Below are positions 45,201-64,000 of a stretch of DNA of 64,000 nucleotides, one piece after another. The notes under the pieces are model-generated. The model was not told where the DNA came from, did no database searches, and was given only the letters and a program-made list of their open reading frames with translations. The DNA is taken from positions 62,001-126,000 of the forward strand of contig JADQBR010000036.1 of NCBI GenBank assembly GCA_016278515.1, given 5' to 3'. A program made the translations under genes and the position numbers. Each line of letters opens with the position of its first letter. Position 1 is the stretch's first letter. The DNA comes from Bacillota bacterium. GTDB taxonomy: Bacteria; Bacillota; JADQBR01.

Positions 45201-45288
45201 ATTAATTTATTAAATTCTTAGTATATTTTATTCTTCTTAATTTATATAATTCCTGCTAAGTATGAAAAGACTTTATTCATATTCGTGT

Positions 45289-46113
45289 TTATTCTACTAA
45301 TTCCCCATATAAATGCGGTTTGCGCCCATTAAGGTAGAATGCATTGCCCATGGATTGCTCATCTCCGTATCGCAGAGAATTAATAATTTCAGCATCAAGA
45401 TCGACAACCAATAATTGTTCCGTTTGTTCAAAGTACTCCTTGACTATGTTGCCTTTTGGATCCAATACTAACAAACCACCACTAAATTGTTGGTAACCAT
45501 CATTCCCAACCAAATTGCAGGCAGCAACATAAACAGCGTTATCGTAAGCTCTTGCCGGCAGATACTTCAGCCAAATTTTCTTTCTATCTCCGGCTACCAC
45601 CGGAGAAGCATGGGGAGCAAAAATAATTTCACATCCCCGCAAAGAGAGGATCGTGGCCATTTCCGGAAAATGCATGTCCCAACAGATGCCTACGCCAAGT
45701 TTTATATTATTGTAAGTAAAATCTACTATGTTTTCTCCCGGACTAAAAAACTCTAGTTCCTTCTTTCCAAGATGAACTTTTCTAAAAGTGTGAATGGTTC
45801 CTTCGGCAGTTGCCAACAGCTGAGTTATATAGGGTTTTGTCCGTCCTGACTTCTCAACCATTCCAGCTAAAATAGTGATGTTATATTTTTTTGCCATTGA
45901 AATTAGCGCCCTTGACGTAAGGCCAGGAATTGTTTCAGCAAGCCTAGCTGCATGTCCTGAGCTATAGCCACAAACAGCCAGTTCAGGGAAACAGATAATT
46001 TCCGTATTCCTGCTTGCAGCTTTACTTGTAAAATCTGCTATAGTTTCAAGATTCCTGTCTATTGACCCTATTTGTGCATTAATTTGTGCTAACGCTATTC
46101 GAACGGGTTGCAC
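45289..46113 (-). CDS. Nitrilase-superfamily carbon-nitrogen hydrolase
   Basis: An approximately 274-residue amidohydrolase. The catalytic triad is present: E in ICFPELAVCGY, K in FRKVHLGKKELEFF and C in GVGICWDMHFPE. Substrate cannot be set from sequence; relatives include omega-amidases, N-carbamoyl amidases and glutaminase-like enzymes. The GTG at 46113 with a TAGGTGA site is the likely start. It lies between the YeiH-type transporter and the riboswitch and does not belong obviously to either pathway. Confidence 0.85.
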   Translation of the reverse strand: MQPVRIALAQINAQIGSIDRNLETIADFTSKAASRNTEIICFPELAVCGYSSGHAARLAETIPGLTSRALISMAKKYNITILAGMVEKSGRTKPYITQLLATAEGTIHTFRKVHLGKKELEFFSPGENIVDFTYNNIKLGVGICWDMHFPEMATILSLRGCEIIFAPHASPVVAGDRKKIWLKYLPARAYDNAVYVAACNLVGNDGYQQFSGGLLVLDPKGNIVKEYFEQTEQLLVVDLDAEIINSLRYGDEQSMGNAFYLNGRKPHLYGELVE

Positions 46114-46301
46114 GTCCGTCACCTACCAGTTCTTTTCTTTTTTAGATGTTGTTCGAAAAGTCCATGCCAAAAGGCAAAAGCAGCGAATTTCTGCAGTGAT
46201 GGGCTTTTAAAACACTCATTGTTTACAATTTCTATTTATTTACTTTTTCTAATTTTTAATTATACTACATAATATCTATAGCTTGTACAGAAATATATTT
46301 T

Positions 46302-46347: not shown

Positions 46348-47718
46348 CTAAAAGCCTGCTAACTGTGGTATAGGGAATAATACTCCACTAAGAAGTAGCC
46401 ATGCTATCAACAGAGTCAACACAAGGTTGAAAGACTGCCCAACAATATACAGCTTCAGAGGCCCCCCGCCTTGCAAGTACTGGGTCATATCTTTAAAGTT
46501 AGATTCTAAACCAATGCTGATAAAGGCTAGACAGAAGAACCAGCCCCTAAATCCTTTCGTCAATTTAAGAATACTACCCGTCACATCTGTACCCAGGCTA
46601 GGTTCAACTAATACCGAAAATATTACTGAAGCAGCAATAAAACCAAGAATAAACTTGGGGAAACGGTGCCAAATTTCACTGGCGCCAACAGCAGGGTCCC
46701 CATCCTTCCTGTCAACCCTGGTAGCAAAGAATACTGCAATGGCAAATGCAATAATACCAATCAAAACGTTCTGGATCATTTTTACCATTGCTGCCACCTG
46801 ACCAGCCAGCGGACCCATTGCCTCACCTGCAAGGACGACAGCGCCAGTTGCATCAATAGTACCACCCATCCAAGCTCCGCCAAGCATGGGATCCATGCCG
46901 ACAGCGGAAAGAATCAGCGGCATGAAGACCATCATAATAACAGTGAAAATTAAGGTTAAACCAACGGCAAAGGTAAGGTCCTCTTTCTTCGCCTTGGCGG
47001 CGGCGGCTGCTGCAATAGCTGCGGATACCCCGCACACCGAAGTAGCCATAGCTATAACAATTACCATAGGTTTACTAGTCATTTTCAATATTTTCGTACC
47101 ATAGTTCCACATAAAAATTAATACTATAGGCGTTACCAACCAAGCAATCCCGAGACCATAAAGCCCAAACTTAATTACATTTGAAAAGAGTATTTCAGCT
47201 CCTAATAATACCAGTCCCGTTTTAATATAATATTCCGTTCTTACCGCTGGTTTCAGCCATTTAGGCGTCCCGACAGTATTACTAATTAGCAAGCCAATCC
47301 CTAATGCCCAGAAAGCATATCCTAAATAATTCTTGATAACATAATGCTTTGAAAAAAGATATGCGAGATTGGCAAGAACAAACACTACTGGAAACGCAAC
47401 AATATACCCCTTTACATCCTCACGCATTACCGCCATACCAATGACTGTAATTATGCCTACAAATACCAATAGAAATAGCAGCTGGGACCCTAAACCATCA
47501 AAAGCACTTATTAGACTTGGATAATCACCTGTCCCCCAACCGTGTGCCTTTACCGCCTTCAAATCAAATGCACCCGAAACCTTACCCATCAAGGCTATGG
47601 CCATAATAAAAAATCCTAGCCAGATGGCCCACCAATCTTCTTTTCTGAACAAGTCAGAAAAATTAAATTTATCTGATGTAACTATATTGGACTTTTCCGG
47701 AGTTACTAGATTAGACAT
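46348..47718 (-). CDS. YeiH/UPF0324-family putative sulfate (sulfur-anion) exporter
   Basis: A 456-residue membrane protein with roughly ten to twelve hydrophobic segments. TSVCGVSAAIAAAAAAKAKK, the PLILSAVGMDPMLGGAWMGG block and GGTIDATGAVVLAGEA identify the UPF0324/YeiH fold (DUF, often called putative sulfate exporter). It is about 100 residues longer than the usual family size, with extra N-terminal segments. The ATG at 47718 has a GGGGGGATT site. Its position next to the dsr locus suggests movement of a sulfur oxyanion or a related anion, but the substrate is inference. Confidence 0.85.
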   Translation of the reverse strand: MSNLVTPEKSNIVTSDKFNFSDLFRKEDWWAIWLGFFIMAIALMGKVSGAFDLKAVKAHGWGTGDYPSLISAFDGLGSQLLFLLVFVGIITVIGMAVMREDVKGYIVAFPVVFVLANLAYLFSKHYVIKNYLGYAFWALGIGLLISNTVGTPKWLKPAVRTEYYIKTGLVLLGAEILFSNVIKFGLYGLGIAWLVTPIVLIFMWNYGTKILKMTSKPMVIVIAMATSVCGVSAAIAAAAAAKAKKEDLTFAVGLTLIFTVIMMVFMPLILSAVGMDPMLGGAWMGGTIDATGAVVLAGEAMGPLAGQVAAMVKMIQNVLIGIIAFAIAVFFATRVDRKDGDPAVGASEIWHRFPKFILGFIAASVIFSVLVEPSLGTDVTGSILKLTKGFRGWFFCLAFISIGLESNFKDMTQYLQGGGPLKLYIVGQSFNLVLTLLIAWLLLSGVLFPIPQLAGF

Positions 47719-47748
47719 TAATAATCCCCCCATCATTGTAGTGCAAAT

Positions 47749-48386: not shown

Positions 48387-49862
48387 CTAAGCTTTAAGAG
48401 AATAAATCCCAAGTAAATCGGCATAACAATCTTTGTTTTTATCCCATTGCAGTTGATTGGCAAATGCCTTTTTCTTTCGGTATTGATTTGCAGCCTTTAT
48501 TAGATTACCGGCCCATCCGCTCCAGGTGGCTGCATGAAAATGAGCATAGGAAGCGAATACTTTTTTGTACAGCAACCCATCTTTCCCGTCGGAAAATCCA
48601 TGACCGCGTCTGACGCTAAATACATGATTAATATCTTCTTTCCCCATTAAGATGGGTCTAGAATAATGGAACTCGTGACCTCGCAGAGACATTCCTAAAG
48701 GGAAATATGGATTGGGCTCACTTACTTCCAATACCATATAACCATGGCCCTGGGGCTTGGCTTCCATTTTAAAATCTATGGGAAACACACCTGCCATTGA
48801 GTATCTTTTCCCGTCAACGTAAAGGCTTTTACCTAGGTACACCAGACCACCGCACTCTGCGTAGACAGGCATACCAGCCTCCGCAGCAGCTTTTAGTGAC
48901 ATTCGAAAACTCTGGTTATTGGCCAGTTGTGCTGCATGAGCCTCAGGAAACCCCCCGCCAATATATAGCCCATCTATTTCCGGCAATGCCGGGTCATCTA
49001 AGGAATTTAACCATATCAGCTTAGCCCCCGCCCACTCTAGTGCTTCTAAATTATCAGGGTAATAAAAGTGAAAAGCTTTGTCCCTGATTACCCCAATTTT
49101 CAGAGAACCCGATCGTTCAATGTTTGCGCAAGAACCTCCATGCACGTTTATCGGAGGCGCATTTGTTGCCAGTTGCTCCAGAGCAATCAAATCAACATAC
49201 TTTTCTACCATGTCAGCCACAAATTCCAATCTCGGTATGGCTTTGGAGTTTTCTACAGGTGGTATTAAACCAAGATGTCTCTCCTCCAGCAGTCCTTCTC
49301 TCACTTTTGGTATAGCCCCCAATACAGACACGCCACAGTAATGCTCAATGCAGTTCCTTATTAAACTTTCCTGCCTGCTGCCCGCCACTCTGTTAAGAAT
49401 TATCCCGCCTATTGTCAGTTCTGGATCAAAATGGAGCATACCCAGCACTGCCGCCGCAGCACTGCGGGTCATTCTAGTGACATCTAGAACCAATATTACC
49501 GGGGCCTGAAGCATTTTAGCCATTTGAGCAGTGCTTCCACTGCCGGTCATGTCCATGCCGTCATAAAGACCCATATTGCCCTCCAAAAGCGACAGATCTC
49601 CTTGGGCAGCATAATAGTTGAATCTTTGCCGCACTTGTTGTTCCTGCATTAAGAACATATCTAAGTTACGGCAATCTATGCCCGAAGCCGCAGTAGACCA
49701 CGCTGAATCGATAAAATCCGGCCCTTTTTTAAAAGGAACAACCTGTTTGCCCTGGCGCTTCCATGCCCCCAATAATCCTAAGGACACTATGCTCTTGCCG
49801 GACCGACCATGAGGGGCAGCAATCATAAGACGAGGCAATTTTGTTTCTATGTTTTGTGACAT
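48387..49862 (-). CDS. dsrN: DsrN, cobyrinate a,c-diamide synthase homologue (putative siroheme amidase)
   Basis: A 491-residue glutamine-dependent amidotransferase. The N-terminal ATPase (MIAAPHGRSGKSIVSLGLLG, KKGPDFIDSAWSTAASGIDC) and the glutaminase-like domain with cysteine in MPVYAECGGLVYLGKS are typical of CbiA/CobB. The genome has a dedicated copy in the B12 operon at 33.4-34.8 kb. In known dsr loci DsrN is placed with dsrAB and is thought to make siroheme amide. It is 58 bases after dsrM and is the last gene of the dsr run. Its 30 extra residues at the C-terminus have no counterpart in the B12 copy. Confidence 0.88.
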   Translation of the reverse strand: MSQNIETKLPRLMIAAPHGRSGKSIVSLGLLGAWKRQGKQVVPFKKGPDFIDSAWSTAASGIDCRNLDMFLMQEQQVRQRFNYYAAQGDLSLLEGNMGLYDGMDMTGSGSTAQMAKMLQAPVILVLDVTRMTRSAAAAVLGMLHFDPELTIGGIILNRVAGSRQESLIRNCIEHYCGVSVLGAIPKVREGLLEERHLGLIPPVENSKAIPRLEFVADMVEKYVDLIALEQLATNAPPINVHGGSCANIERSGSLKIGVIRDKAFHFYYPDNLEALEWAGAKLIWLNSLDDPALPEIDGLYIGGGFPEAHAAQLANNQSFRMSLKAAAEAGMPVYAECGGLVYLGKSLYVDGKRYSMAGVFPIDFKMEAKPQGHGYMVLEVSEPNPYFPLGMSLRGHEFHYSRPILMGKEDINHVFSVRRGHGFSDGKDGLLYKKVFASYAHFHAATWSGWAGNLIKAANQYRKKKAFANQLQWDKNKDCYADLLGIYSLKA

Positions 49863-49920: not shown

Positions 49921-50919
49921 TTACTGTTCTTCTTTTTCCAACGGTAGACCAGCGCCTTTCATCTTGTTACCGAATTCCATTTCGTATTCTGCGTATGAAT
50001 GTACATCTACTGGGTAATTCCATGGATTGATGTGACGTTTAGCCCGGTTGTTATTGGCCAAATTTCTGGTAGGGCTTAGGAAAACACCTCCCATGTGCAT
50101 TAGCTTGCTAAAGGAAAAATAGATGAACAGTACACTGACTAAAAATAAATGAACATAAAAGACCGCACCGATACCCTCCGGCACCTTTGGACTAAACATT
50201 GCCAAACTAACAGCGAATTCCTTAACAGCTCCCAAATCTACCCTAAGAAAATACCGCATAGTTATGCCTGAAAAAGCGATGCCTAGTATCATCAACAGCG
50301 GAAAATAATCAGCGGGCAGAGAAATATACCTGAGTTGGGGTATTACTATTCGTCTCAAAAATAGATAAGTTACTGCTAGCACCAATAGAACATCCGTTAT
50401 ATATACAGTTGGAAGACCCAACTGAAGAAAACCGTCTAAACCTTCAGTAAAGCGGACCAAGGCCGGAATAGGCTGGATAAAAAACCGCAGGTGTCTAATA
50501 GCGACGACCAGAAAAGACCAGTGAAACAACAGACCAGCCAGCCAGAGCCATTTCTCCCATCCATACGTAAGTTTTGGACCCTTCCGCAATTCTGCTTTTG
50601 TATTACGAAATAAGGATCGAAAAAGCAGTATCTCTAATAGCATCCGGCCAATAACACCTGCGGTGTTGGAAGGATTATCCAGCTTATTAGCCTTTAGCCA
50701 AGAAAAAGATTTTTGCTGTCCGGCAGTGGTAGGAATTCGGAAGGGCACGGGTGCCTGCGCCCATTTAAAAACCCTCCAACACAAACCCACCAGAAAAACA
50801 GCCAGTACCATATATGGTATAACCACCGCCAGTAACGGTTGAAAGAATGATACACCGGCACCGGCTGAAGCCAGTGCCACCAATGACAGTACTATTATCA
50901 ATGAAGCTTTCAGGCCCAT
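49921..50919 (-). CDS. dsrM: DsrM, cytochrome b membrane subunit of DsrMKJOP
   Basis: A 332-residue NarI-like cytochrome b that oxidises menaquinol and passes electrons to DsrK. An N-terminal signal-anchor-like helix pair is followed by a NarI-type core with heme-ligand histidines in LLFHWSFLVVAIRHLRFFIQ and further helices ending FSFSKLMHMGG. The ending is hydrophilic. Here it is the last of the five subunits (order K-J-O-P-M), whereas the usual order begins with dsrM. It follows dsrP by 24 bases. Confidence 0.9.
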   Translation of the reverse strand: MGLKASLIIVLSLVALASAGAGVSFFQPLLAVVIPYMVLAVFLVGLCWRVFKWAQAPVPFRIPTTAGQQKSFSWLKANKLDNPSNTAGVIGRMLLEILLFRSLFRNTKAELRKGPKLTYGWEKWLWLAGLLFHWSFLVVAIRHLRFFIQPIPALVRFTEGLDGFLQLGLPTVYITDVLLVLAVTYLFLRRIVIPQLRYISLPADYFPLLMILGIAFSGITMRYFLRVDLGAVKEFAVSLAMFSPKVPEGIGAVFYVHLFLVSVLFIYFSFSKLMHMGGVFLSPTRNLANNNRAKRHINPWNYPVDVHSYAEYEMEFGNKMKGAGLPLEKEEQ

Positions 50920-50943: not shown

Positions 50944-52074
50944 CTATACTGACTCTCTTTTCACTGTGACTGCGACCTTAAAAAGTATAGTAAGTATTAA
51001 AAAACCTATTGCCCAGACACCAATACTTATCATCATTTCCGGAATTGTCGGCATATAGGTGGCAACTCTTTCAAAAGAAGTCAGCACAAAACCTCCAGCG
51101 ATAAAACCTAGGCCTTTCTCCAACCATAACGATACAAATACCGCTATACAGGCCGCTATCAGTGCATTGCTGTTGCTTCGGCTATTACGATTAAGCAAGA
51201 TAATCAGAGCCCCTACAGCCAACAACGCAGAAAGCCACATATAAGGAATCTGAAATAGATGCTTTAAGCTAAGCATATGTCCCGGCACCTGACTATAGAA
51301 ACCAGTGAATACCTCAAGCAACACAAAGAACACAGTGATAACCATGGCATAAGTAACAACAGTTACTAGTTTTTGCAATACCTGCTTATCAACTTCAAAG
51401 CTACTTACCCGGTTCATAATTAAACAGAGAATGATCAACAGGGCCGGCCCCGCCGCAAAAGCAGAAGCCAGAAAACGAGCCGCCGTAAGTGCTGTGAACC
51501 AATAATGTCTCCCCCCCAGTCCTGCATATAGAAAACCGGTTACGGTATGAATACTAACCGCCCAGGGAATAGACATATAAATCAAGGGCTTAACCCATCT
51601 GGGAGGAGGCACGTCTTTCCGTTCCGACTCCAACATGTTCCAACCTATTAAGATGTTAAGCAGCAAGTAGCCGCCCAATACCATCATATCCCAAAACATT
51701 ACCGAGTTTGGTGTGGGATAACGCAATATATTTAAGAGGCGTTGAGGTTGACCCAAGTCAACGATAATAAACAGCATACACATTACAACTGCAGCAACAG
51801 CTAGGAATTCACCGAATACGGTTACCCTGCCAAACTCCTTCTGATTATGAAGATAATATGGTATCACTACCATAACCGCTGATGCCGCTACACCCACAAG
51901 AAAGGTGAATTGTCCAATATACAGCCCCCAGGACACATCCCGGGTTAATCCGGTGACTGTTAATCCGCTGCGAAACTGCCATAAGTAGCTGCTCATACCA
52001 AGGCCTATCAAAACCAGCAGGAAAGTTACCCAGCGCCAATAAGTTTTATCTCCCGATAATGCTTTATGAAGCAT
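50944..52074 (-). CDS. dsrP: DsrP, NrfD-type membrane subunit
   Basis: A 376-residue NrfD/PsrC-family membrane protein with about ten helices. It interacts with menaquinone and with the DsrO iron-sulfur protein. VSWGLYIGQFTFLVGVAASA and VPGHMLSLKHLFQIPYMWLS are recognisable family parts. It is separated from dsrO by 12 bases. Whether it oxidises or reduces quinone is not settled for the family. Confidence 0.92.
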   Translation of the reverse strand: MLHKALSGDKTYWRWVTFLLVLIGLGMSSYLWQFRSGLTVTGLTRDVSWGLYIGQFTFLVGVAASAVMVVIPYYLHNQKEFGRVTVFGEFLAVAAVVMCMLFIIVDLGQPQRLLNILRYPTPNSVMFWDMMVLGGYLLLNILIGWNMLESERKDVPPPRWVKPLIYMSIPWAVSIHTVTGFLYAGLGGRHYWFTALTAARFLASAFAAGPALLIILCLIMNRVSSFEVDKQVLQKLVTVVTYAMVITVFFVLLEVFTGFYSQVPGHMLSLKHLFQIPYMWLSALLAVGALIILLNRNSRSNSNALIAACIAVFVSLWLEKGLGFIAGGFVLTSFERVATYMPTIPEMMISIGVWAIGFLILTILFKVAVTVKRESV

Positions 52075-52086
52075 ATTTAACCACCC

Positions 52087-52845
52087 TTATACTAAGTAGT
52101 AAATGTTTGGCCCAGTTCCCAATCCCGGCCTGCGCCGGATACTGTAACGGGAATTAAGCATCTTCCAAATGTGAGATTTCTCATCATTTAAATCGCCAAA
52201 GACCAAAGCATCGTTAACTTCCACACAAGCCGGTTGTTTGCCGGCAGCAAGCCTTTCCGCACAGAAATTGCACTTTTCAACCACGCCCCTTTGTCGCAAA
52301 GGATAATCCGGATTCGGTTCCTTAACATAAGGACGTGGGTCCATGAAATTGAAACTTCTGGCGCCAAAGGGGCAAGCCGCCATACAGTACCGGCATCCGA
52401 TACATCGGTGATAATCCATCATCACAATTCCATCTTCCCTTTTAAAAGTAGCTCCAGTTGGACAGACCCGAACACAAGGTGCATTGTCGCAATGATTGCA
52501 AAGCACCGGGAACAGACTGTTTAGAAAAGATTCGTTCAAATAAGGATGTTTCTGGTCGGCAAAGCTTTTTTCGTAAGGTTCCCCCCAGATCCACTTAACC
52601 GCTTCCTCCTGCAGCTCGATCTTAGGTACATTATGTACCCTGTGGCATGCAGCGGCTGCTTCTTCTATAACCTTGGGACCCTTTGTCGCCAATGCCTCCA
52701 TGTCCATCGCTATACCCCACCGGACAGTTCCTTCGGATAATTTATTCTTATCAATTCCCGCAAAGACATTGACAGTTGGAATCAGGGCTAGCCCGGATAG
52801 TGTTAATAGGCCGGCACCAATGAATTTTCTGCGATTGACAGTCAT
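52087..52845 (-). CDS. dsrO: DsrO, periplasmic iron-sulfur protein with Tat signal
   Basis: A 252-residue ferredoxin-like subunit. The N-terminus [20 protein letters not shown] has a twin-arginine signal, so the protein acts outside the membrane. Cysteine groups [33 protein letters not shown] and [16 protein letters not shown] could hold up to four [4Fe-4S] clusters. It overlaps dsrJ by four bases. It is expected to link DsrJ heme and DsrP. Confidence 0.93.
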
Positions 52846-53240
52846 AGCTGACTCTCCTTTGGCTCAGAATGGCAATTCCAACAATCAGGCTCCACGTTTA
52901 GAGAACTATGGCAGGTATCGCAAAAATCCGCCTTGTTAGTGTGGCATCCAAAACATGTTGCCTCCAAACTAATTTCATAAGTTTTTCCTGCATTATTGAT
53001 ATACGTCCTTCTGCTGTTTCGAACAACCTCGTTCCTCCAATCATCAAGCAACCGCATGTGCGAAGCTCTCATGTAGGATACGGATTCAACACACTCTTTT
53101 TCCTCCAGTTGCTCGATTTCAGGCGTCTCCACTTGGTATCCCAGCACAGGAGCCGACTGCCCCAAAGAGTACCAAAGTGGAAATGTAATTAAGATAAGAA
53201 AAATGATTAGTCCGGGAATGATTTTACCGGCATCATACAT
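52842..53240 (-). CDS. dsrJ: DsrJ, membrane-anchored triheme cytochrome c
   Basis: An approximately 132-residue cytochrome. An N-terminal membrane anchor ([20 protein letters not shown]) leads to a periplasmic domain with three heme-binding motifs CFGCH, CDTCH and CWNCH close together near the C-terminus. Heme attachment outside the cell membrane requires a cytochrome c maturation system not visible here. I use the ATG at 53240; a GTG at 53246 is possible. Full DsrJOP sets are more typical of Gram-negative sulfate reducers than of Bacillota. Confidence 0.93.
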
Positions 53241-53282
53241 AACCACCAGACTCCTTTAAGTATTTAAGTCCCTTTTCCACAG

Positions 53283-54875
53283 TTATTCGAAACTCTGCAT
53301 TCTTAGGTCAAGGGTTCTTTCCTTTTCCCCTCGCATTACCAAGGCATTACCTACTAATTCATGCACTCCGCTTACTGCTACTCCAGGAACCCAATAGTCC
53401 ATAAGCGAAGGCAAAACAGCCCTATCAATTGCACAAATACAGGAAAGAAGGTTTACCCCGTGTTTATCATGGACATGCCTTACTGCATTAGCCCGCGGCA
53501 AGCCTCCAGCCATACGCATTTCCATAAACTCATCAGTATTGAGACCTGAACCGCTGCCACAGCAAAATGTTTCTTCTTTAATAGTGTTCTCAGGCATTTC
53601 GAAGAAATTATTGCATACATGGTTGAGAATATAGCGAGGTTCTTCAATAAGTCCCATGGCTCGCGAAACATTACAAGAATCATGAAAAGTTACTCTAAGC
53701 TGGTCATTCCGACTGGAATCCAGCTTGATTGCGTTATGTTTTATCAAATCGCTGGTAAATTCGGTGATATGAACCATCTTAGTAGATTTAGCATTTTCAA
53801 ACCTAGTACCCGTTACTGGAGACACCGGCTGTTCCATAAAACCCGCCGGTCCATTCATAGTATCCATGTATTGGTGGATAACGCGCCACATATGCCCACA
53901 TTCACCGCCTAAAATCCACTTGGCTCCCAAGCGCTCCGCTTCTGCATACATTTTTGAATTCAACCTCTTCATCATTTCATGGGAGTTGAATAGACCGAAA
54001 TTGCCTCCCTCTGACGCATATGTGCTTAACGTATAGTCCAGCCCTAATTCATGGAACAGCATCAAGTAACCCATCATCGTATATGTTCCAGGGTCCGCAA
54101 ATACGTCTCCTGAAGGTGCAATAAACAAAATTTCTGCGCCTTTCCTATTAATTGTCGGTTCAATTTTAATACCCGTAACTTCTTTGATATCATCTACGCA
54201 AAAATCAATCATATCAACCAAGGCGTGAGGTTGAATGCCTAAGTGATTACCTGTGCGATAACAATTTGCTGCAGGGGACGTAATCCAATCGATGTTACAA
54301 CCTATTAAATTGAGCAGCTCCCTGCCTATGATAGTAATTTCTGCTGTATCAATACCATAGGGACAAAATAATGAACAGCGTCTGCATTCGGTGCATTGAA
54401 AGAAATAATAAAACCATTCTTTTATAACATCTTCTGTTAGCTCCCTGGCGCCGGCAAATTTGCCTAAAATTTTTCCAGCCATTGTGAAATCTTTACGGTA
54501 AACAGATCTTAACAGTTCTGCCCGCAGTACCGGCATGTTTTTTGGATCACCGGTGCCAAGATAGAAATGACATTTATCGGCACAAGCCCCACAGCGCACA
54601 CAGATATCCATAAAGAGGCGCAATGAACGAAACTTGTGCAGACGTTCTCTCAGTCCTTCAAAAATAATTTCTTTCCAGTTCTCAGGAAGTTTCCAGTCCT
54701 CATCACTGGGAGACCACTTCCGAGGATTTGGCAGTCCTAAAGACTTAAGACTGTCAGGTTTGGATGCATAGCACCACGTTCCTGACCTAAACTGTGGTTT
54801 CGTATCCATCCAATCTCTTTCTGGCGGATTATATGATATTTTCGCCAATTCCTCCGGTTTAGGAGTTGAGGCCAT
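53283..54875 (-). CDS. dsrK: DsrK, HdrD-like catalytic iron-sulfur subunit
   Basis: A 530-residue cytoplasmic subunit that takes electrons from DsrM and reduces the DsrC trisulfide. Two ferredoxin-type motifs, CVRCGACADKCHFY and CTECRRCSLFCPYG, and a CCG region (DSCNVSRAMG with FCCGSGSG) fit DsrK. The terminal cysteine pair of the CCG domain reads SCICAIDRA, a C-x-C, where the second copy in this window has ACSNCKG, a C-x-x-C. It follows the RsbRD-domain gene by 23 bases. Confidence 0.92.
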   Translation of the reverse strand: MASTPKPEELAKISYNPPERDWMDTKPQFRSGTWCYASKPDSLKSLGLPNPRKWSPSDEDWKLPENWKEIIFEGLRERLHKFRSLRLFMDICVRCGACADKCHFYLGTGDPKNMPVLRAELLRSVYRKDFTMAGKILGKFAGARELTEDVIKEWFYYFFQCTECRRCSLFCPYGIDTAEITIIGRELLNLIGCNIDWITSPAANCYRTGNHLGIQPHALVDMIDFCVDDIKEVTGIKIEPTINRKGAEILFIAPSGDVFADPGTYTMMGYLMLFHELGLDYTLSTYASEGGNFGLFNSHEMMKRLNSKMYAEAERLGAKWILGGECGHMWRVIHQYMDTMNGPAGFMEQPVSPVTGTRFENAKSTKMVHITEFTSDLIKHNAIKLDSSRNDQLRVTFHDSCNVSRAMGLIEEPRYILNHVCNNFFEMPENTIKEETFCCGSGSGLNTDEFMEMRMAGGLPRANAVRHVHDKHGVNLLSCICAIDRAVLPSLMDYWVPGVAVSGVHELVGNALVMRGEKERTLDLRMQSFE

Positions 54876-54897: not shown

Positions 54898-55404
54898 CTA
54901 ATCTATTAGATTGGCCCTCTGAAGCAGCCTGAAGTTGTTCCTCTTAACCTCTTCTACTCGATTTGCATAGATTTTTTCTCGACAATCATGATAAACATCT
55001 ACAGCAACAAGCAGCAGTCCATCTATCTGACGCTCCAACTGAATTAATTCTTCGCTGCCGAGTACGTCCTTACCAAGCTCTCCAATTAATTCATTCCTAA
55101 TAATATCCTTTAAACTGAACATAAAAGATAGTCCTTGAGATGGTGCCGTACTTTGCACTACCATTACCCGAATAATATCTTCCAGGGATGCACTCATTTT
55201 ATCGTCCTCGTCATTATCAAGGAGATGATTATAGATACCCTGCAATCCATCATAAATCTTTGTACCCACCGGATTGGCAAAAGGGTCTTTCTCACTGCTA
55301 AAGAAATTGCCCGTTTGCTGTGGGTACATCTGCTTAATTAAAGCGTAAAACCATTTTCTCAACACATCAGCTTCTTTATCTGACAGCAGCGTCTGAATAT
55401 GCAC
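54898..55404 (-). CDS. RsbRD_N-domain-like protein in the dsr operon
   Basis: A 168-residue helical protein similar in layout to the N-terminal sensor domain of RsbR/RsbRD-type proteins (VLRKWFYALIKQMYPQQTGN, FANPVGTKIYDGLQGIYNHL, SAPSQGLSFMFSLKDIIRNEL in short parts). Proteins of this type occur beside dsr genes in several sulfate reducers, but their role is unknown. There is no STAS domain, so it is not a stressosome subunit. The GTG start at 55404 follows a GGATG site. It may be an assembly factor or sensor for DsrK, which is the next gene; this is inference. Confidence 0.65.
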   Translation of the reverse strand: MHIQTLLSDKEADVLRKWFYALIKQMYPQQTGNFFSSEKDPFANPVGTKIYDGLQGIYNHLLDNDEDDKMSASLEDIIRVMVVQSTAPSQGLSFMFSLKDIIRNELIGELGKDVLGSEELIQLERQIDGLLLVAVDVYHDCREKIYANRVEEVKRNNFRLLQRANLID

Positions 55405-55422: not shown

Positions 55423-57096
55423 CTAACCACCGTAGTTAACAGCTAAAAGTCCGCCTTCCACAAACTTGACTTTGTTAAAACCATGCGCTTGTAAGATAAC
55501 AGCAGCTTCGTAGCTACGTGTTCCCAATTGGCACAGCGTTAATATTTCCCTGTCCGCAGGTAGTTCGTCAATCCGAGTGCGTAATTGGCCCAAGGGAATG
55601 GTCTTAACCCGTTGGTCGTCTACGGGAGTATCTGTTGTTTCCTCTTCCTGGCGCACATCCAAAACCATATAATCCCCGAACGACAGCAACTTATCTGCAA
55701 ATTCACCAGGCGACATGCCAACCGCCAGACCATTCAGCTTATTACTCAATACATTTGCAGCATGAATTGCTGTATCTATGGGTGAAGCAAAGGCCGGAGC
55801 ATACCCTAAGTCCAAACCAGAAATTTGTTCTACATTAGCTTTAAAGGTAATAGCTGCAGCCAAGACATCCAGCCTCTTAATCACCTCTCCGGTGCCTAAT
55901 ACTTGAGCTCCTATCAAGGTACCTTCCTCTTTATTAACCACCAGCTTAATAATAGCGTCTGCACTAAGTGGGTAGTAATGGGCCGTATCATGACCAGAGA
56001 TAAGAGCCGTAACCACTTCGTACCCTTCTTTTAGAGCCTCTGTTTCTGTGAGCCCGGCACGGCCGATATTCAGATCAAGCGCCTTTAAAACCGTAGTCCC
56101 TAAGACCCCGGGGAAAGTTTCTCCCATTCCCGCAATATTACTTCCGATAACCCTGCCGTGTTTGTTAGCCGTTGAAGCCAGGGGAACATAAGTCGGTTTT
56201 CCGGTAACAATGTGCGTATTCTCTATACAGTCTCCACCGGCAAAGATACTGGTATCCGATGTCCGCAGTTGGCTGTCTACAGCTATAGCACCGGTAGGAC
56301 CCAAGTAAAGGCCGGCATCCTCTGCTAAATCAACCATCGGTCGCACTCCCACTGCTACCACTGCCGCCTCTGCTGGAAGAGTACATTTTTCTGTTAAAAC
56401 CTGTTCAAGTTTTTCATGACCTGAAAACCCAGTTAAGGACTGGCCACAAATCACTTTTACCTTATGTCTTTCCAAGTGGCGCTTTACCAAACTTGCCATT
56501 TCAGGATCAAAAAGCCCTGACAGAAGCTGTTTTTCCTTTTCCACCACTGTGATGTTTCTCTTGCGACCGTGAAGAGCATCTACTAATTCCAAGCCTATCA
56601 ACCCTCCACCAACAATCACTATATCCTCTATCTTTTGCCGCATTTGCTTCTGCAGCTTTGCCGCATCTTCGGGATGGTGCATATTGTAGATACCGGGAAG
56701 ATCATTACCCGGAACCAACAGCTTCACCGGACGTGAACCAGTAGCCAATACTAAATAGTCGTAAGCAACTATGTCCTTTCCTCCATCAACTACTTCTAAA
56801 AGCACTTCTTTTTTTTCTCGATCTATTGATACTGCTTTTGTGCGTCCTCGAATAACAACGTCCTTTTCCTGCAAAAAATAATTTGCATCACGAACTATTC
56901 CTGCTGATGTTTTGGTCAACCCAGCCAACTCCGGTACCAATCCTCCTAAATAGAGAGGTAAACCGCAGCTACCATAACTAAACCAGCTGTCCTGCTCTAT
57001 AATCGTAATCTGAGCATCCGGCAGCAGACGCCGGGCCCGTGCTGCAGCCTTGGGCCCGGTAGCCACCCCGCCAATCACAACAATCTTAAGCGACAT
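55423..57096 (-). CDS. CoA-disulfide reductase with C-terminal rhodanese domain (Npsr-like)
   Basis: A 557-residue flavoprotein with a rhodanese domain at residues 460-557. The FAD site (VVIGGVATGPKAAARARRL), active-site C in WFSYGSCGLPLYLGG, NAD site (VIVGGGLIGLELVDALHG) and FAGGDCIENTH motif mark a CoA-disulfide/persulfide reductase. The rhodanese loop carries its C in LTLCQLGTRSYEA. Homologues reduce CoA-persulfide or polysulfide with NAD(P)H. Placed nine bases after dsrC, it could supply or remove sulfane sulfur or offer an NADH route to sulfide chemistry. This is an unusual member of a dsr operon. Confidence 0.88.
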   Translation of the reverse strand: MSLKIVVIGGVATGPKAAARARRLLPDAQITIIEQDSWFSYGSCGLPLYLGGLVPELAGLTKTSAGIVRDANYFLQEKDVVIRGRTKAVSIDREKKEVLLEVVDGGKDIVAYDYLVLATGSRPVKLLVPGNDLPGIYNMHHPEDAAKLQKQMRQKIEDIVIVGGGLIGLELVDALHGRKRNITVVEKEKQLLSGLFDPEMASLVKRHLERHKVKVICGQSLTGFSGHEKLEQVLTEKCTLPAEAAVVAVGVRPMVDLAEDAGLYLGPTGAIAVDSQLRTSDTSIFAGGDCIENTHIVTGKPTYVPLASTANKHGRVIGSNIAGMGETFPGVLGTTVLKALDLNIGRAGLTETEALKEGYEVVTALISGHDTAHYYPLSADAIIKLVVNKEEGTLIGAQVLGTGEVIKRLDVLAAAITFKANVEQISGLDLGYAPAFASPIDTAIHAANVLSNKLNGLAVGMSPGEFADKLLSFGDYMVLDVRQEEETTDTPVDDQRVKTIPLGQLRTRIDELPADREILTLCQLGTRSYEAAVILQAHGFNKVKFVEGGLLAVNYGG

Positions 57097-57104
57097 AATA
57101 CCAC

Positions 57105-57419
57105 CTACACACAGCCGGTTGGTTTAGGAAGCCCGGCAATCTTACATGCGCCTTTTGCAGGGCCGCTAGGAAACAACTCGTAAATATCTTTTAACGGATA
57201 CCCTGTATCTTTACACAGCTTACGAACCATTGGAGCAATACCGTATTCAAAATAATAATTCCGCAGATAGTTAACAACTTTCCAGTGATCTTCCGTCAAT
57301 TCCTCGACCTCTTCAGTTTTTGCCAAGTAAGCAGCAACTGCTTCATTCCACAAGTCAGGTTCAACGATGAAACCGTCCTCATCCACTTCAAATACCTTTC
57401 CGTCTATTTCAAAACTCAT
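57105..57419 (-). CDS. dsrC: DsrC, sulfur-carrier substrate of DsrAB
   Basis: A 104-residue DsrC. The C-terminal arm GPAKGACKIAGLPKPTGCV carries both conserved cysteines, 11 residues apart (penultimate and upstream). With both present it can form the DsrC trisulfide during sulfite reduction, unlike TusE-type proteins with only one. A helical swivel of DHWKVVNYLRNYYFEYGIAPMVRKLCKDTGYPL, read in parts, precedes it. The ATG at 57419 has a GGGGGTGG site. It is separated from the 53-aa gene by 76 bases. Confidence 0.95.
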   Translation of the reverse strand: MSFEIDGKVFEVDEDGFIVEPDLWNEAVAAYLAKTEEVEELTEDHWKVVNYLRNYYFEYGIAPMVRKLCKDTGYPLKDIYELFPSGPAKGACKIAGLPKPTGCV

Positions 57420-57495: not shown

Positions 57496-57657
57496 CTATT
57501 CGTTATAGCTTGCAATATCTGCTTTGACAGCTTCTAGAGCCATAGTTATCCCTTCAGCAACCCCTTTTTTATATTCATTGGATTTATAATCCTCCAATTC
57601 GTTAACTATGGCTTCATACGCCTGAATAGTCTTCACCAGAGCTTCTTTAAGTAACAT
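57496..57657 (-). CDS. Unannotated 53-aa protein between dsrD and dsrC
   Basis: A 53-codon gene, below the length cut-off of the usual ORF search. It reads MLLKEALVKTIQAYEAIVNE then LEDYKSNEYKKGVAEGITM and ends KADIASYNE with TAG at 57496. A GGGAG ribosome-binding site lies nine bases before the ATG at 57657. It is strongly helical, with alternating acidic and hydrophobic residues and no cysteines. Its position inside the dsrABD-dsrC run with matching codon style makes it likely real. Function unknown; a DsrC or DsrAB partner is inference. Confidence 0.75.
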   Translation of the reverse strand: MLLKEALVKTIQAYEAIVNELEDYKSNEYKKGVAEGITMALEAVKADIASYNE

Positions 57658-57700: not shown

Positions 57701-57904
57701 CTACTTTTCTTTTAGTTTCACAAATGATGTGCCTATATAGAGAAATTCAATAATGTCTTCTTTGGCCAATTCGTTAATTACCTTATCTACCTCTCTTTTA
57801 CGCACGCCAACGGCATTGGCAACCTCCCTGTTCTTTGCCTTATCAACCTTGCTTAGATATTCCAGGACTTTCTCTTTTAGTTCTTCTTGGGAAATTTCAG
57901 TCAT
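57701..57904 (-). CDS. dsrD: DsrD, winged-helix protein of reductive dsr loci
   Basis: A 67-residue winged-helix protein (LKEKVLEYLSKVDKAKNREVA, VGVRKREVDKVINELAKEDI). DsrD is linked to reductive-type dsrAB and is reported to enhance DsrAB activity. It is 15 bases after dsrB with a GGGGGAAC site. Its presence, and the absence of dsrEFH and dsrL, argue for sulfite reduction and not sulfur oxidation. Confidence 0.95.
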   Translation of the reverse strand: MTEISQEELKEKVLEYLSKVDKAKNREVANAVGVRKREVDKVINELAKEDIIEFLYIGTSFVKLKEK

Positions 57905-57919
57905 AATCGTTCCCCCTAA

Positions 57920-58996
57920 CTATTTGGTATATTTGAAATTACTGGTACTCCTAAAGGTGGGCACGGAAAATTTAAAGTCATCAATATGCTTATCTGTAAA
58001 GGGCAGCCCAGCAATCTCGAAGAATTTCTCCCAACCAATTCTCTCAATCCATTCGCCATATCTTTCGCCTTTTTTAGCATTCTGAATCCAGACATCTACC
58101 AGATTTCGTACTGCCTCTACCAGCTCATCCCATCTGGGTGGGTTGTTGGGTAACCAAGGAATTGCCAACCGCGAAAACGTCGGGCCGGACCGAGAGTTGG
58201 AAACTTTACCGCCAACAAATATAGCAAGGCCGTCATTTTCTGGATCCATTATTTTCATAGATGGACAGACTGTATAACAGTTGCCGCAGTACATGCACTT
58301 CTCTTCATTGACTATTACACTTTTAGCTTTAGGGTTTGGTCTAATAGCACCCGTTGGACATGAAGCAATAAGGTTAGGTATTTCACAGTTTTTACTAACG
58401 CCTTCATCATCAATTCTGGGTACTGTACGATGTATACCTACAAAGGCAATATCAGAGCAGTGTACGGCACCACACATATTAAGACAACAGGCCATGGATA
58501 TTTTTAGCTTTGCCGGTAAGTCATCAGCTTTGAAATAATCGTAAAGATCATCCATTACTGCCTTGACGGTACCGGATGCATCGGTCGCCGCGCTGTGGCA
58601 GTGAACCCAGCCTTGGGTATGGATAATATTGTTCAAGCTGTTGCCGGTACCTCCTATGGGCCAACCTCTTGCTTCCAATTCTCCTATCAAAGCGTTCATT
58701 TCATTAGAACTGTCAAGCAAAAACTCAATGTTGTGTCTGGAGGTAAAACGCAGGTGACCGTTACAATACTTATCTGCCAGATCAGCCATTTTGCGCAGGG
58801 TATCAATACCAATTAAACGGGGAGAACCCACACGAACTGTATATAGCTCATCACCTGTCTCACTGACATGCTTAAGTACTCCCGGTTTAACTCTCTCAAA
58901 GTACTTCCATTTTCCATAATTATCCTTAATAATCTGCGGCAGCATTTGCTCATAATGTGGAGGGCCAATATCGGTTTTTGCCATTGTTTTAACCAT
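57920..58996 (-). CDS. dsrB: DsrB, dissimilatory sulfite reductase beta subunit
   Basis: A 358-residue siroheme/[4Fe-4S] subunit. Siroheme-binding cysteines lie in [12 protein letters not shown], and an inserted ferredoxin domain shows [16 protein letters not shown] with [27 protein letters not shown] is a well conserved stretch. The ATG at 58996 overlaps the dsrA stop by eight bases. It forms an alpha2-beta2 complex with DsrA that reduces sulfite. Confidence 0.97.
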
Positions 58997-60242
58997 TTTT
59001 TATCTCCTTTCCTGCAGCTGCTTCCCCTAATGCGTCACCCTCACCCTTTTCTTTAGCCAGCTCTTCAGGCCACCAGAAGAAGTACGGGTTCGCCCTTGGA
59101 TGTTTAACCATTTGCGGCTGCGGCTTCAACCCTACTTCCTTTAAAAAGGTACGCATGCCTTTTCTATATATAAGTTCACCGATTCTTTCTCTAACCTTGC
59201 CGTTTTCATCCCACCATTCCCACATTTTATCTAGGAGGTCTTTCAATTCCACGTAGTCATCCTCTTTTTCCAATTTCATAAAGGGAACAATAACCCATGA
59301 TAAGAATGCAGACTGAACTAAAGTGGCTTTACCGCCTAGCAGAATGGTCGCACCCCGGTCTTTACCGATTTGGAGGGCTTTGGGCATTTTATTGATACAA
59401 TGCATACATCTTACGCAGTTCTCATCATCCACATTAAATGTCATCTGTTCTGCATCAAACGTACAAGCATCCGTTGGACATTTATCCACTACCAGTTCTT
59501 GGATTTCCAGTCCGTTTGCTGCATAATCTTTTACTGCGTCTTGATCGATCCCAATGACATCACGCCAAGTGCCTATTATTGACATATCTGCTCGGGCAAT
59601 TGAAGAAACACAATCATTAGCACATCCAGAGATCTTAATCTTAAACTTATAAGGCCACATTGGACGGTGTAATTCATTTTGAAATTGGTTTGTTAGATTA
59701 TGACAAAGATCCAGTGTGTCAAAGCAAGCGCTGCTGCAGCGAGCAGGACCAACACAGCAGGAAGGGGTTCGTAAATCGGAACCAGATCCTCCTAAATCCC
59801 ACCCATTGGCCGATAAATCATCAAAGCATGATTGCAGGTGCTCCGTTGGCGCTCCCAGCAGCACGACATCTCCAGTAGCGCCGTGAAAATTAGTGAGCCC
59901 GGAACCGTGTTTTTCCCAAACATCCGCTAAAGAACGTAATGCATCAGATGTATAGAACCAACCGGCTGGTTGATTGACACGAAAAGTATGAAATTCTTTA
60001 ACATTTGGAAATTCTTCGGGCATGTCACAGTATCTACCGATTACACCACCACCGTAACCTCTAACTCCAACTATACCCCCATGCTTCCAGTGAACTACTT
60101 TATCATTATAGGATTGTTCAAGGAGATTCAGCGCATCTTCCGCCATTTCACTGGTCTCAGCCTGTTTCTCCATCTGCTTGACAAAGCTTGGCCAGGGGCC
60201 CTTCTTCAATTCATCAAGCATCGGTCTCTTCTTATCCGACAT
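58989..60242 (-). CDS. dsrA: DsrA, dissimilatory sulfite reductase alpha subunit
   Basis: A 417-residue subunit of dissimilatory sulfite reductase. The siroheme-[4Fe-4S] cysteine pattern C-x5-C...C-x3-C is seen as [12 protein letters not shown] and [11 protein letters not shown] ferredoxin insertion carries DKCPTDAC and [30 protein letters not shown] and [20 protein letters not shown] are conserved regions. It follows the ferredoxin gene by 57 bases and overlaps dsrB. Confidence 0.97.
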
Positions 60243-60508: not shown

Positions 60509-61882
60509 TCAGCGGACTAGTGCGTTAGCGACCAATTCACTAATACCCGCATACCGCACAGGGAGATTAAAATGATTAATTATGTCCCTGAATTGACCTT
60601 TACAGTTTGAGCAGGCCAGTGCAACTACTTGTGCACCATTATCTTTTATCTGCGCAGCTTTGACCTTGCCGTAGTACTCCATACGAAACTTCTTAAAATC
60701 ACCTTTTTCCATGATGGCAAAACCGCTTCCCCCACCGCAGCAATAGCTCATCTCCCGATTGGGGTACATCTCCCGGAAATCTAAACACGAAGCCTCTAGG
60801 ATACGCCTTGGTTGTTCGTATAATCCAGATAATCTTCCGTATTTACACGCATCGTGATAGGTGACTGGGTCAGGATTTTTGCTGGGATCCACCTTTATTC
60901 TTCCTTGTTTGATCCATTCATCCATTAACTCCAGAATACTTTTAACCTCAAAAGGCCGCTCCTCTTTGGGAATTAAACGTTGAACCAAATATTTCATAGC
61001 TTCATAAGCGTGGCCGCATTCCCCTATTACCAGGGTATCTGCCCCTAGCTTTTTAGTGGTTTCAATCTGAGCCTTAATAACCTCAGTAAACTCTACATCA
61101 CTAAAAAATAATCCATAGTTTACAGCATCATTAACACCAGTATCCGGCGAATTCAAAGTCCAATCCACTCCTGCCGCATTGAACACCTCGGCGGCTCCCA
61201 TGACGGTTTCACTGAAGGCCATATAATCTCCGGCGTTATGCATTAGCAAAAAATTAGACCCTTCTTTATCCACCGGAATTTCCAATTCATACCCTCGGGT
61301 ATCTTCTATATCCTCTTCCAAAAACTCAATCATATTTTTAAACGCCGGGGTAGCAGCACCAGTTGCATTGCCCATTTTTAGCTGCAGCTGAGTGCCTTTT
61401 TCTTTTAGTTCATCCGGAGCAATTCCAATGGCATCCAGTATTTTGCGTCCCTCTCTTACTAATAAACCATTATCTATAGCTACTGGACAAACGTAGGCGC
61501 ATCTTCGGCAGACAGTACAACGGTAAAAGCTTTCTGCCAGCTCATTCAGCTTAGCTTCCGTCAGGTCCTCTGCACCAACCAAAAACGGTAAGTGACGTCC
61601 GGTAAAAGTAAAGTACCGCTGGTAAATCTTTCGGAGCATATCAGCACGCTGCACCGGATGATAAATCTGCTCCTTTTTTTCCTGATAAACAGGGCAGACC
61701 TCTGCACAGGTGCCACATTTCATGCAATTTTCTAAGGATAATAGATAGGGCAAATAAAAGGTCCAATTATCTTGACTACTTAATGAGCTTTCCATTGCCT
61801 TTAGAAAACTGGGGACTCTTTCATCCTGGGGCTTTAAAATACGATCAGACAGCACTCGATATTCGTCAAACAATTTATTCAT
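60509..61882 (-). CDS. DsrK-like/HdrD-like iron-sulfur protein (second copy)
   Basis: A 457-residue protein with two ferredoxin motifs (CMKCGTCAEVCPVY and CTVCRRCAYVCPVA) and a complete CCG region (DACKYGRLSG, SYCCGGGSGF and ALACSNCKG). It is shorter than the 530-residue DsrK of the same locus and could be the DsrK of a DsrMK-only complex or a TmcB-like protein. It overlaps the membrane subunit gene by four bases. Partner function is inferred from the fused order membrane subunit-DsrK-like-ferredoxin-dsrAB. Confidence 0.85.
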   Translation of the reverse strand: MNKLFDEYRVLSDRILKPQDERVPSFLKAMESSLSSQDNWTFYLPYLLSLENCMKCGTCAEVCPVYQEKKEQIYHPVQRADMLRKIYQRYFTFTGRHLPFLVGAEDLTEAKLNELAESFYRCTVCRRCAYVCPVAIDNGLLVREGRKILDAIGIAPDELKEKGTQLQLKMGNATGAATPAFKNMIEFLEEDIEDTRGYELEIPVDKEGSNFLLMHNAGDYMAFSETVMGAAEVFNAAGVDWTLNSPDTGVNDAVNYGLFFSDVEFTEVIKAQIETTKKLGADTLVIGECGHAYEAMKYLVQRLIPKEERPFEVKSILELMDEWIKQGRIKVDPSKNPDPVTYHDACKYGRLSGLYEQPRRILEASCLDFREMYPNREMSYCCGGGSGFAIMEKGDFKKFRMEYYGKVKAAQIKDNGAQVVALACSNCKGQFRDIINHFNLPVRYAGISELVANALVR

Positions 61883-62544
61883 TGAGGTTCACCCCACTTG
61901 ACCTTGTGATACGTAAAATATTTCGCTGCGAAATGACTCATTCTGCTGAAAGGCATATACAGTATAAAAATCTGCAGTAACAACAGCGGCAAAAAAATAG
62001 CAGAATTAATTGCTGTATCAGGGTTAAAACTGGCTAGGCCCCTGATATAATCCTTTAAAACCAAGTATTGGACTGGTATGTTGCTGGTTAAAGTAGTTAA
62101 CCCAATTGCTGCCAGCATTACTAATTGAATATAATCCTGTGGCGCAGAAATGCTGCGCAATTCTTTGAAAGATAAGCGAACTATTATTAACCCCAAAGCA
62201 CCTAATGTTAACAAAACTGCGCCGGCAAAACCAAATAATACTGACCGGGGAAGTCCGGCTGTTAACAGAAGTAAGCCAATAAGACCATGATAAATCCCCC
62301 AGTGCATTGCTAAAGAAGGCAGCCATATTTTACGGTTGTGTAAAAACAGGCTGTGCAATATGACTACTTCCACAATTAGCTCACCAATTTGTTCAGCATT
62401 GCTTTGTGGATATGGGAATAACTCCCAATGAAGATTTCTCGGGCTTTTAGCCCATTTCCTGATTTTCCAATAGAACCCTAGTAAAAAAATAGCAGCTGTC
62501 ATGTACGGCATTAAATCTGTCACAAAATATTTAACAGCATTCAC
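61879..62544 (-). CDS. DsrM-like/NarI-like cytochrome b membrane subunit (short form)
   Basis: A 221-residue membrane protein with about six helices. Candidate heme ligands are seen in VVILHSLFLHNRKIW and LAMHWGIYHGLIG, and SRMSHFAAKYFTYHK is close to the end. It lacks the N-terminal 80 residues of the longer DsrM at 49921-50919. TmcC is an alternative. The ATG at 62544 uses a ribosome-binding site AAGGTGA that overlaps the stop codon of the 63-aa ORF. It is the first membrane subunit gene of the operon. Confidence 0.85.
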   Translation of the reverse strand: MNAVKYFVTDLMPYMTAAIFLLGFYWKIRKWAKSPRNLHWELFPYPQSNAEQIGELIVEVVILHSLFLHNRKIWLPSLAMHWGIYHGLIGLLLLTAGLPRSVLFGFAGAVLLTLGALGLIIVRLSFKELRSISAPQDYIQLVMLAAIGLTTLTSNIPVQYLVLKDYIRGLASFNPDTAINSAIFLPLLLLQIFILYMPFSRMSHFAAKYFTYHKVKWGEPQ

Positions 62545-63060: not shown

Positions 63061-64000
63061 ATGGATACACGATTATTAATATTTAAAACTGTAGCAGACC
63101 TACAAAGTTTTTCTCGGGCAGCGGAAGTGCTTCACATTTCCCAACCGGCTATTAGTCATAACATTCAGGCCCTGGAAGAGTATTATGGCTGTACTTTATT
63201 CCACCGCAGCACAAGACAGGTGATGCTGTCTAACTGCGGCAAAATCTTATATCAATATGCAAAACAGTTGTTAAATCTTTATGAAACCGCTGCAGAAACG
63301 ATGCAAGAGATGAATCACGTACCACGTGGCAAACTAAGCCTAGGGGCCAGCCAAACTATAGGTGACTATGTAGTACCTCAGCTTACAGCTTCATATGCTG
63401 GGGAATACCCGCAAATACAGATTTTAGCAGAAATAGCCAATACAACTGAAATAATCGCTCGCCTCCATAATCATTCCATTCAAATGGCTTTAGTTGAATT
63501 TTATGTAGATGATCCAACTGTAAGGTTAAAACCCTTTATGGACGACAAACTTGTATTAATTACACATCCTTCTCACCCATGGCATAAAGGAAACCATGTT
63601 ACCCTAGAAAAATTGGTAACACAGCCATTTATCATTCGCGAAGAAGGCTCTGGGACACGCCAGGTGGTTGAAGATAATTTGCTAGCAGCAGGAGTAGCTA
63701 TTAAAGACTTCCCTCTGCATATTGTGTTAGGCAGCAATCAGGCCGTCAAAGTGGCAGTACAAAGCGGCTTAGGAATTGCTGTTTTATCCAATGCTGCGGT
63801 TGAGAGGGAGTGTGAATACGGACTGCTTGCTAGACTCGAAATAGAGGGTCTAAGCATAAAACGCAAATTTTACACTGCCAACCTGAAAGGAGATAAACCC
63901 GATCTCCCCACAAGGCTTTTCTTGGACTTATTAAAACAAAAATATAATTACAATGCTTTTATAACAGGCTTTCTTCTTCTATTTTGTTTTTTGTTTTGCT
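63061..64000 (+). CDS. LysR-family transcriptional regulator (partial at right edge)
   Basis: At least 313 codons with no stop before the window end. The N-terminal winged helix-turn-helix (DTRLLIFKTVADLQSFSRAA, EVLHISQPAISHNIQALEEY) and the effector domain (GKLSLGASQTIGDYVVPQLT, PFIIREEGSGTRQVVEDNLL, GSNQAVKVAVQSGLGIAVLS) are typical of the CysL/YwfK-type LysR proteins. It diverges from the dsr operon, so it is a strong candidate regulator of sulfite reduction genes. The last 20 residues in this frame are hydrophobic and may extend past the real stop of homologues. Confidence 0.9.
   Translation, partial: MDTRLLIFKTVADLQSFSRAAEVLHISQPAISHNIQALEEYYGCTLFHRSTRQVMLSNCGKILYQYAKQLLNLYETAAETMQEMNHVPRGKLSLGASQTIGDYVVPQLTASYAGEYPQIQILAEIANTTEIIARLHNHSIQMALVEFYVDDPTVRLKPFMDDKLVLITHPSHPWHKGNHVTLEKLVTQPFIIREEGSGTRQVVEDNLLAAGVAIKDFPLHIVLGSNQAVKVAVQSGLGIAVLSNAAVERECEYGLLARLEIEGLSIKRKFYTANLKGDKPDLPTRLFLDLLKQKYNYNAFITGFLLLFCFLFC

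Follow-up and report, generated by a model that had tools for sequence, protein, structure and literature searches.

We identified a gene encoding a reductase-rhodanese fusion protein within the dsr locus of a Bacillota genome, in a stretch of 64,000 nucleotides (the window). By sequence, modelled fold and active-site loop, the protein is an Archaeoglobus-type NADH-dependent persulfide reductase (Npsr) with a predicted activity, and the enzyme is known, but its genomic setting, the dsr operon, is new. In Bacillota that use sulfite or thiosulfate, not sulfate, the gene has probably been taken into the dsr operon, where it encodes a persulfide/polysulfide reductase.

The fusion gene lies in an unbroken run on the minus strand in the order dsrM2, dsrK2, dsrA, dsrB, a dsrD-like ORF, a 53-aa ORF, dsrC, the fusion, an RsbRD_N-domain gene, dsrK, dsrJ, dsrO, dsrP, dsrM and cbiA/dsrN (Table 1). 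The original prediction placed the fusion directly after dsrC at a distance of nine bases; the adjacency is correct, but the spacing is eight bases (57097–57104). On the minus strand, the TAG that ends dsrC overlaps a ribosome-binding-like AGGTGG upstream of the fusion ATG. Promoter- and terminator-like sites in the dsr stretch are as frequent as expected by chance from shuffled sequences, so transcription units were assigned only from spacing, by which the co-directional dsr genes and the fusion appear to form one operon. The DsrC of the window retains both C-terminal cysteines (CKIAGLPKPTGCV). A profile scan returned no match to the DsrD family model for the 67-aa ORF. Homologues of the 53-aa ORF occur at the same place in two other genomes (62% in G001 and 33% in G231), and a cobalamin riboswitch is present at 45003–45210, upstream of the cbiM/cbiQ/ABC/cbiD genes.

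Table 1. Features of the dsr locus and its surroundings, in window coordinates
Feature	Position	Strand	Remarks
YeiH-family (PF03601) transporter	46348..47736	-	
cbiA/dsrN-type a,c-diamide synthase	48387..49862	-	
dsrM-like cytochrome b subunit	49921..50919	-	
dsrP-like NrfD protein	50944..52074	-	
dsrO-like ferredoxin-type subunit	52087..52845	-	
dsrJ-like	52842..53246	-	three CxxCH haem motifs in sequence; without Pfam match
dsrK	53283..54875	-	NF045796, 757 bits
RsbRD_N-domain protein, between reductase and dsrK	54898..55404	-	
Npsr-type persulfide reductase fusion gene	55423..57096	-	FAD/NAD(H) core, dimerisation domain, C-terminal rhodanese
dsrC	57105..57419	-	104 aa; PF04358, E 4.5e-39
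53-aa ORF between dsrD-like ORF and dsrC	57496..57657	-	no family match
dsrD-like small winged-helix ORF	57701..57904	-	67 aa; named from position
dsrB	57920..58996	-	TIGR02066, 502 bits
dsrA	58989..60242	-	TIGR02064, 554 bits
dsrK2, HdrD/DsrK-like Fe-S protein	60509..61882	-	DsrK model 325 bits, below the cut-off of 400
dsrM2, NarI/DsrM-like membrane subunit	61879..62544	-	
LysR regulator, divergent from dsrM2, reaching window end	63061..63999	+	YeiE-like, below YeiE cut-off

The fusion protein (557 aa) consists of Pyr_redox_2 (PF07992, E 1.2e-55, residues 4–313), Pyr_redox_dim (PF02852, E 2.8e-14, 340–443) and Rhodanese (PF00581, 469–552) domains, as identified by a Pfam scan. Its closest solved relative by sequence is AfNpsr (NoxA-3) of Archaeoglobus fulgidus (6pfz; 445.6 bits, 41–42% identity). 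A structure model of the fusion built from 27 sequences (pLDDT 90.4) superimposes on 6pfz with a TM of 0.93 and a Z of 46.7 over 539 residues. The likeness runs the full length of the protein and takes in the fold, the FAD-site cysteine, the rhodanese cysteine and the loop that covers CoA. A comparison of 74 proteins showed the single FAD-site Cys44 (AfNpsr Cys42) and the rhodanese Cys522 (AfNpsr Cys519), which lies in CQLGTR, in every one of them; Arg527 is kept in all 18 proteins of the dsr-linked clade described below. The CoA-covering loop of AfNpsr (60–66, TTYGAVR) aligns to the fusion protein without gaps and is found alike in rows of the dsr clade and of its sister clade. Glu186, located where the second strand of the NAD fold ends, shows no variation across 27 rows; we take a glutamate at this position, by general rule, to favour NADH. 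A glutamate follows the rhodanese cysteine in 11 of 18 dsr-clade segments compared, but not in any of the 18 sister rows or 38 others, and Leu48, after the FAD cysteine, is found in 12 of 18 dsr-clade proteins versus 0 of 56 other rows.

The fusions of Enterococcus faecalis (CoAPR, 8a56), Bacillus anthracis (CoADR-RHD, 3icr) and Shewanella loihica PV-4 (Npsr, 3nta and 3ntd) match the model at Z 41–43, behind 6pfz. They share the fusion and the fold, with TM values of 0.90–0.92 for the first two and 0.91 for the third, but differ in sequence (32–33% and 32% identity, respectively). To our knowledge neither B. anthracis nor E. faecalis has a dsr pathway. The S. loihica protein also differs in being described without the closing loop (PMC7969121). 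According to the same paper, AfNpsr reduces persulfides and polysulfides with NADH, has no CoA-disulfide activity, and is described as anomalous in a sulfate reducer unable to respire sulfur. Its gene, AF0395, reportedly shares regulation with that for D-lactate dehydrogenase, AF0394 (PMC3949148), whereas the window gene is part of a dsr operon. DsrL, an NAD(P)H:DsrAB oxidoreductase, resembles the fusion as a nicotinamide-linked flavoprotein with a gene beside dsr genes and an analogous role. However, DsrL is an iron-sulfur flavoprotein, with DsrL-2 described as using NADPH only (PMC7596348). A Pfam scan gave no Fe-S family match in the window fusion, and we rejected its identification as DsrL on this ground.

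A sample of 398 genomes from the phylum contained 54 with dsrB, all of which have DsrC. The fusion is matched at E 1e-45 in 46 of these 54 genomes (71 matches in total) and has no match in the other eight. Twelve of the 71 matches share a contig with dsrB and lie no more than 11 kb from it, all 12 on the dsrB strand, compared with a random expectation of about 0.55, and a chance neighbourhood was rejected. These are found in G000, G001, G004, G035, G043, G076, G111, G117, G231, G345, G350 and G385; a thirteenth linked genome, G083, carries the gene beside dsrC on a short contig. The linkage is thus present in 13 of the 54 dsrB genomes and lacking in 41. The original prediction of a rhodanese-fused persulfide reductase beside dsr genes is borne out, the gene being conserved within dsr loci, and the linkage is not widely absent from relatives. 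The position next to dsrC that it pointed out is shared by only some of these: the two genes are direct neighbours (within 200 bases) in seven of the 13 linked genomes (G000, G001, G004, G043, G083, G117 and G350, where the order is reversed), but dsrC is not a constant neighbour. Within the family of G385, the gene is found at E 1e-110 in 17 of 45 genomes (18 loci). Because the flanks are short the neighbour counts there are lower bounds: within about 1.5 kb of the gene, dsrK2 or dsrM2 occurs in at least 16 of the 18 loci and dsrA in at least 10.

The original prediction also noted that no sat or apr genes lie in the window. This is true of the whole host genome (4.27 Mb, 167 contigs, completeness 100), in which a profile search found no Sat and no AprA over the cut-off; the best match is an AprA-like protein encoded outside the window (318.6 bits versus 641.75). 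By the joint presence of Sat and AprA over their cut-offs, the host does not class as a dissimilatory sulfate reducer, and the lack of both favours sulfite or thiosulfate over sulfate as the acceptor. The AprA-like gene sits in a cluster where neighbouring ORFs resemble, by eye, APS kinase, ferredoxin and CysD; we read this cluster as assimilatory, while allowing for a route of sulfate respiration. Three genomes of the host class were sampled, two of which (G000 and G001) have dsrB and the linked gene and one (G002) neither over the thresholds.

Across the phylum sample, AprA over the cut-off occurs in none of the 13 linked genomes versus 15 of the 41 unlinked dsrB genomes (Fisher p 0.011, uncorrected for relatedness); counted by genus, the figures are 0 of 11 versus 10 of 25 (p 0.016, likewise uncorrected). 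Sat is present in four linked genomes (G001, G004, G076 and G111), with a weak AprA-like gene at most a few kilobases away in G001, G076 and G111. Neither protein exceeds its cut-off in the linked genomes of Gracilibacter BRH_c7a, Desulfosporosinus metallidurans, Bacillota MAG-73 and a Clostridia MAG, the last carrying the same gene as G083. We rejected the idea that linkage is exclusive to genomes lacking AprA, since linked loci of Omnitrophota and Chloroflexota come with AprA: the genomes of the dsr-linked Omnitrophota SURF_12 and Chloroflexi FK encode both Sat and AprA. These are likely sulfate reducers, which counts against a role confined to sulfite and thiosulfate respirers. Desulfosporosinus SRJS8, where dsrK2 but no dsrA lies beside the gene, also has both proteins.

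We placed the fusion proteins in a quick tree of 75 rows, comprising 44 hand-picked loci of 80 named and 31 survey loci; rows L053 and L076 are one gene present twice, and rows L082 and L112 have one stop each, entered as X. Of the 19 linked rows, 17 (16 distinct genes) group in one clade of 19 rows with a support of 98, the remaining two members of which are Desulfosporosinus genes beside dsrK2. The clade extends to Chloroflexota, and the linked rows outside it are Omnitrophota SURF_12 and G231. Linkage changes four times on the tree, compared with a mean of 16.9 for shuffled labels, and none of 500 shuffles was as low. The sister clade (18 rows, support 100) has no linked rows and consists of Desulfotomaculum-type sulfate reducers that carry the gene in an unrelated neighbourhood. 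No dsr genes are found at the 11 sister loci compared, and nine of these share one neighbourhood of families that resemble, by eye, an Xaa-Pro peptidase, EF-P, AroQ and SpoIIIA proteins. Since the sister proteins of sulfate reducers are encoded elsewhere in the genome, the chemistry does not need the operon. The Desulfosporosinus UBA4726 copy (L082:10001–11662) contains one in-frame stop. G001 has a second, distant reductase-rhodanese fusion (L043:8942–10603) that adjoins a LysR gene and two small permease-like ORFs.

Distances between fusion proteins correlate with those between DsrK proteins (r 0.77, 0 of 5000 shuffles), DsrC (r 0.62, p 0.005), DsrA (r 0.51) and DsrB (r 0.41), but not significantly with DsrK2 (r 0.2, p 0.11), all over 10–13 loci. 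The values hang on single rows: changing one DsrK row moved the fusion-DsrK correlation from 0.0 to 0.77 and that of dsrB and dsrK from 0.84 to 0.04. The correlations may reflect common descent only.

Several other genes recur among the 21 linked loci, which are stretches rather than genomes (L043 and L044 come from one genome). A YeiH-family transporter gene is near dsr in nine of the 21 versus none of the 11 sister loci. LysR regulators are found in six linked loci, and the two that were scanned are YeiE-like but under the YeiE cut-off. YeiE and YeiH have been tied to sulfite in Salmonella, where YeiH is known for sulfite resistance (PMC12880088). Given this precedent and the recurrence of both families, a sulfite-centred gene island around linked dsr loci is plausible. 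Homologues of the RsbRD_N-domain protein occur in 11 of the 21 loci, beside dsrC or dsrMKJOP.

Most likely, the fusion acts as a cytoplasmic sulfane-sulfur reductase of sulfite/thiosulfate respiration. From the gene order, domains, residue conservation, fold, loop and clade-wide linkage described above, we infer the following series of steps. Sulfane sulfur could come from thiosulfate, polysulfide or protein persulfide, the thiosulfate being formed by the chemistry of sulfite with sulfide or by DsrAB, which yields thiosulfate when short of DsrC. The rhodanese Cys522 would accept this sulfur and hand it to an enzyme-bound CoA thiol, and reduction at Cys44/FAD with NADH would then give sulfide. 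With thiosulfate as the donor, sulfite would be freed and could be reduced by DsrAB. The net effect would be to return stray sulfane sulfur to the sulfite-to-sulfide route with the oxidation of NADH. The linkage in the host and in many relatives lacking AprA suggests that an NADH-driven step of sulfite respiration has been overlooked.

The same enzyme could instead serve in detoxification, keeping sulfane sulfur low amid sulfite and sulfide and carrying no respiratory flux, with its place in the operon reflecting co-regulation. Such protection has been proposed for AfNpsr, whose host is inhibited by sulfur (PMC7969121), and the nearby YeiH and YeiE-like LysR genes would fit a sulfite-stress regulon. 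However, the dsr linkage of a single clade extends over several families and two phyla, and in related sulfate reducers the gene has a different location, so that we consider detoxification possible but somewhat doubtful. It is unlikely that DsrC itself is the substrate, with Cys522 taking sulfur from a DsrC persulfide or trisulfide and NADH reducing it in a second, soluble exit beside the menaquinol-linked DsrMKJOP. The seven linked genomes in which dsrC is the immediate neighbour, the ribosome-binding-like site overlapping its stop codon and the correlation with DsrC distances are consistent with this idea. But DsrMKJOP, whose genes lie at the same locus, already serves this step, so the DsrC cycle can be closed without NADH; the more constant neighbours in the G385 family are dsrK2 and dsrM2 (16 of 18 loci), and the DsrC tails are near-identical in the 11 linked loci compared, so that no adapted contact is visible there.

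Two further functions appear very improbable. The original prediction named the protein a CoA-disulfide reductase, an enzyme that would keep CoA reduced, and a model of this kind is indeed its best NCBIfam match. The name is loose: the protein scores below both curated cut-offs (TIGR03385, 392.4 bits versus 578.8; NF007123, 361.4 versus 458), on which ground we rejected a plain CoA-disulfide reductase. The rhodanese domain and the absence of CoA-disulfide activity reported for AfNpsr, the closest characterised protein, also argue against it. We give equally little credence to sulfur disproportionation, in which the fusion would feed sulfane sulfur to DsrC for oxidation by a reverse DsrAB. In its favour, DsrC could receive sulfur from a rhodanese domain, and over the cut-off the genome has neither Sat nor AprA. 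However, an NADH-dependent reductase consumes sulfane sulfur and does not oxidise it, and no DsrEFH- or DsrL-like family was seen by eye among the recurrent unlabelled neighbours of the linked loci.

We found no description of the fusion-dsr linkage in the open-access literature, though subscription papers or supplements may contain one; in the main text of a 2023 survey of Dsr synteny (PMC10504309), the words 'persulfide' and 'NADH' do not occur. The chemistry of Npsr proteins is known while their roles are unclear, and a clade fixed at dsr offers a setting in which a role can be tested. If the function as a sulfane-sulfur reductase of sulfite/thiosulfate respiration is correct, NADH has an entry into the reductive Dsr pathway that does not involve DsrL; this would change energy balances, and the gene could serve as a marker for distinguishing, among dsrAB-bearing genomes, those of sulfite/thiosulfate respirers from those of sulfate reducers. 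A broader scheme, which we put forward tentatively and think unlikely to hold as a whole, is that NADH-dependent reduction of DsrC-bound or thiosulfate sulfane sulfur gives Bacillota a second path to sulfide within the reductive Dsr pathway, a soluble one that runs alongside the menaquinol-driven DsrMKJOP and is unrelated to DsrL. In this scheme the fusion, together with DsrM2K2 and a YeiH-type transporter, would mark a sulfite-respiration island characteristic of Bacillota that have dsrAB but no AprA.

Some additional features of the linked loci were observed. Besides the window, YeiH-family genes lie beside dsr in L044, L076, L077, L140, L158, L159, L162 and L163, occurring twice in L159 and L076. 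A carbon-nitrogen hydrolase of the nitrilase family is near dsr in five of the 21 loci (window 45289–46122, L044, L081, L155 and L163). The DsrK2 proteins of the window and of G111 (window 60509–62544; L158:17192–19221) are 71% identical, whereas the window protein is 43–47% identical to other linked DsrK2 proteins, indicating two kinds of DsrMK2 in this setting. Finally, three stretches (L156:10461–13387, L157:15979–19669 and L161:15287–19967) have further, divergent dsrAB-like genes near the main dsr locus, accompanied by a short DsrC-like gene, and similar short DsrC-like genes are also found in f14 genomes.
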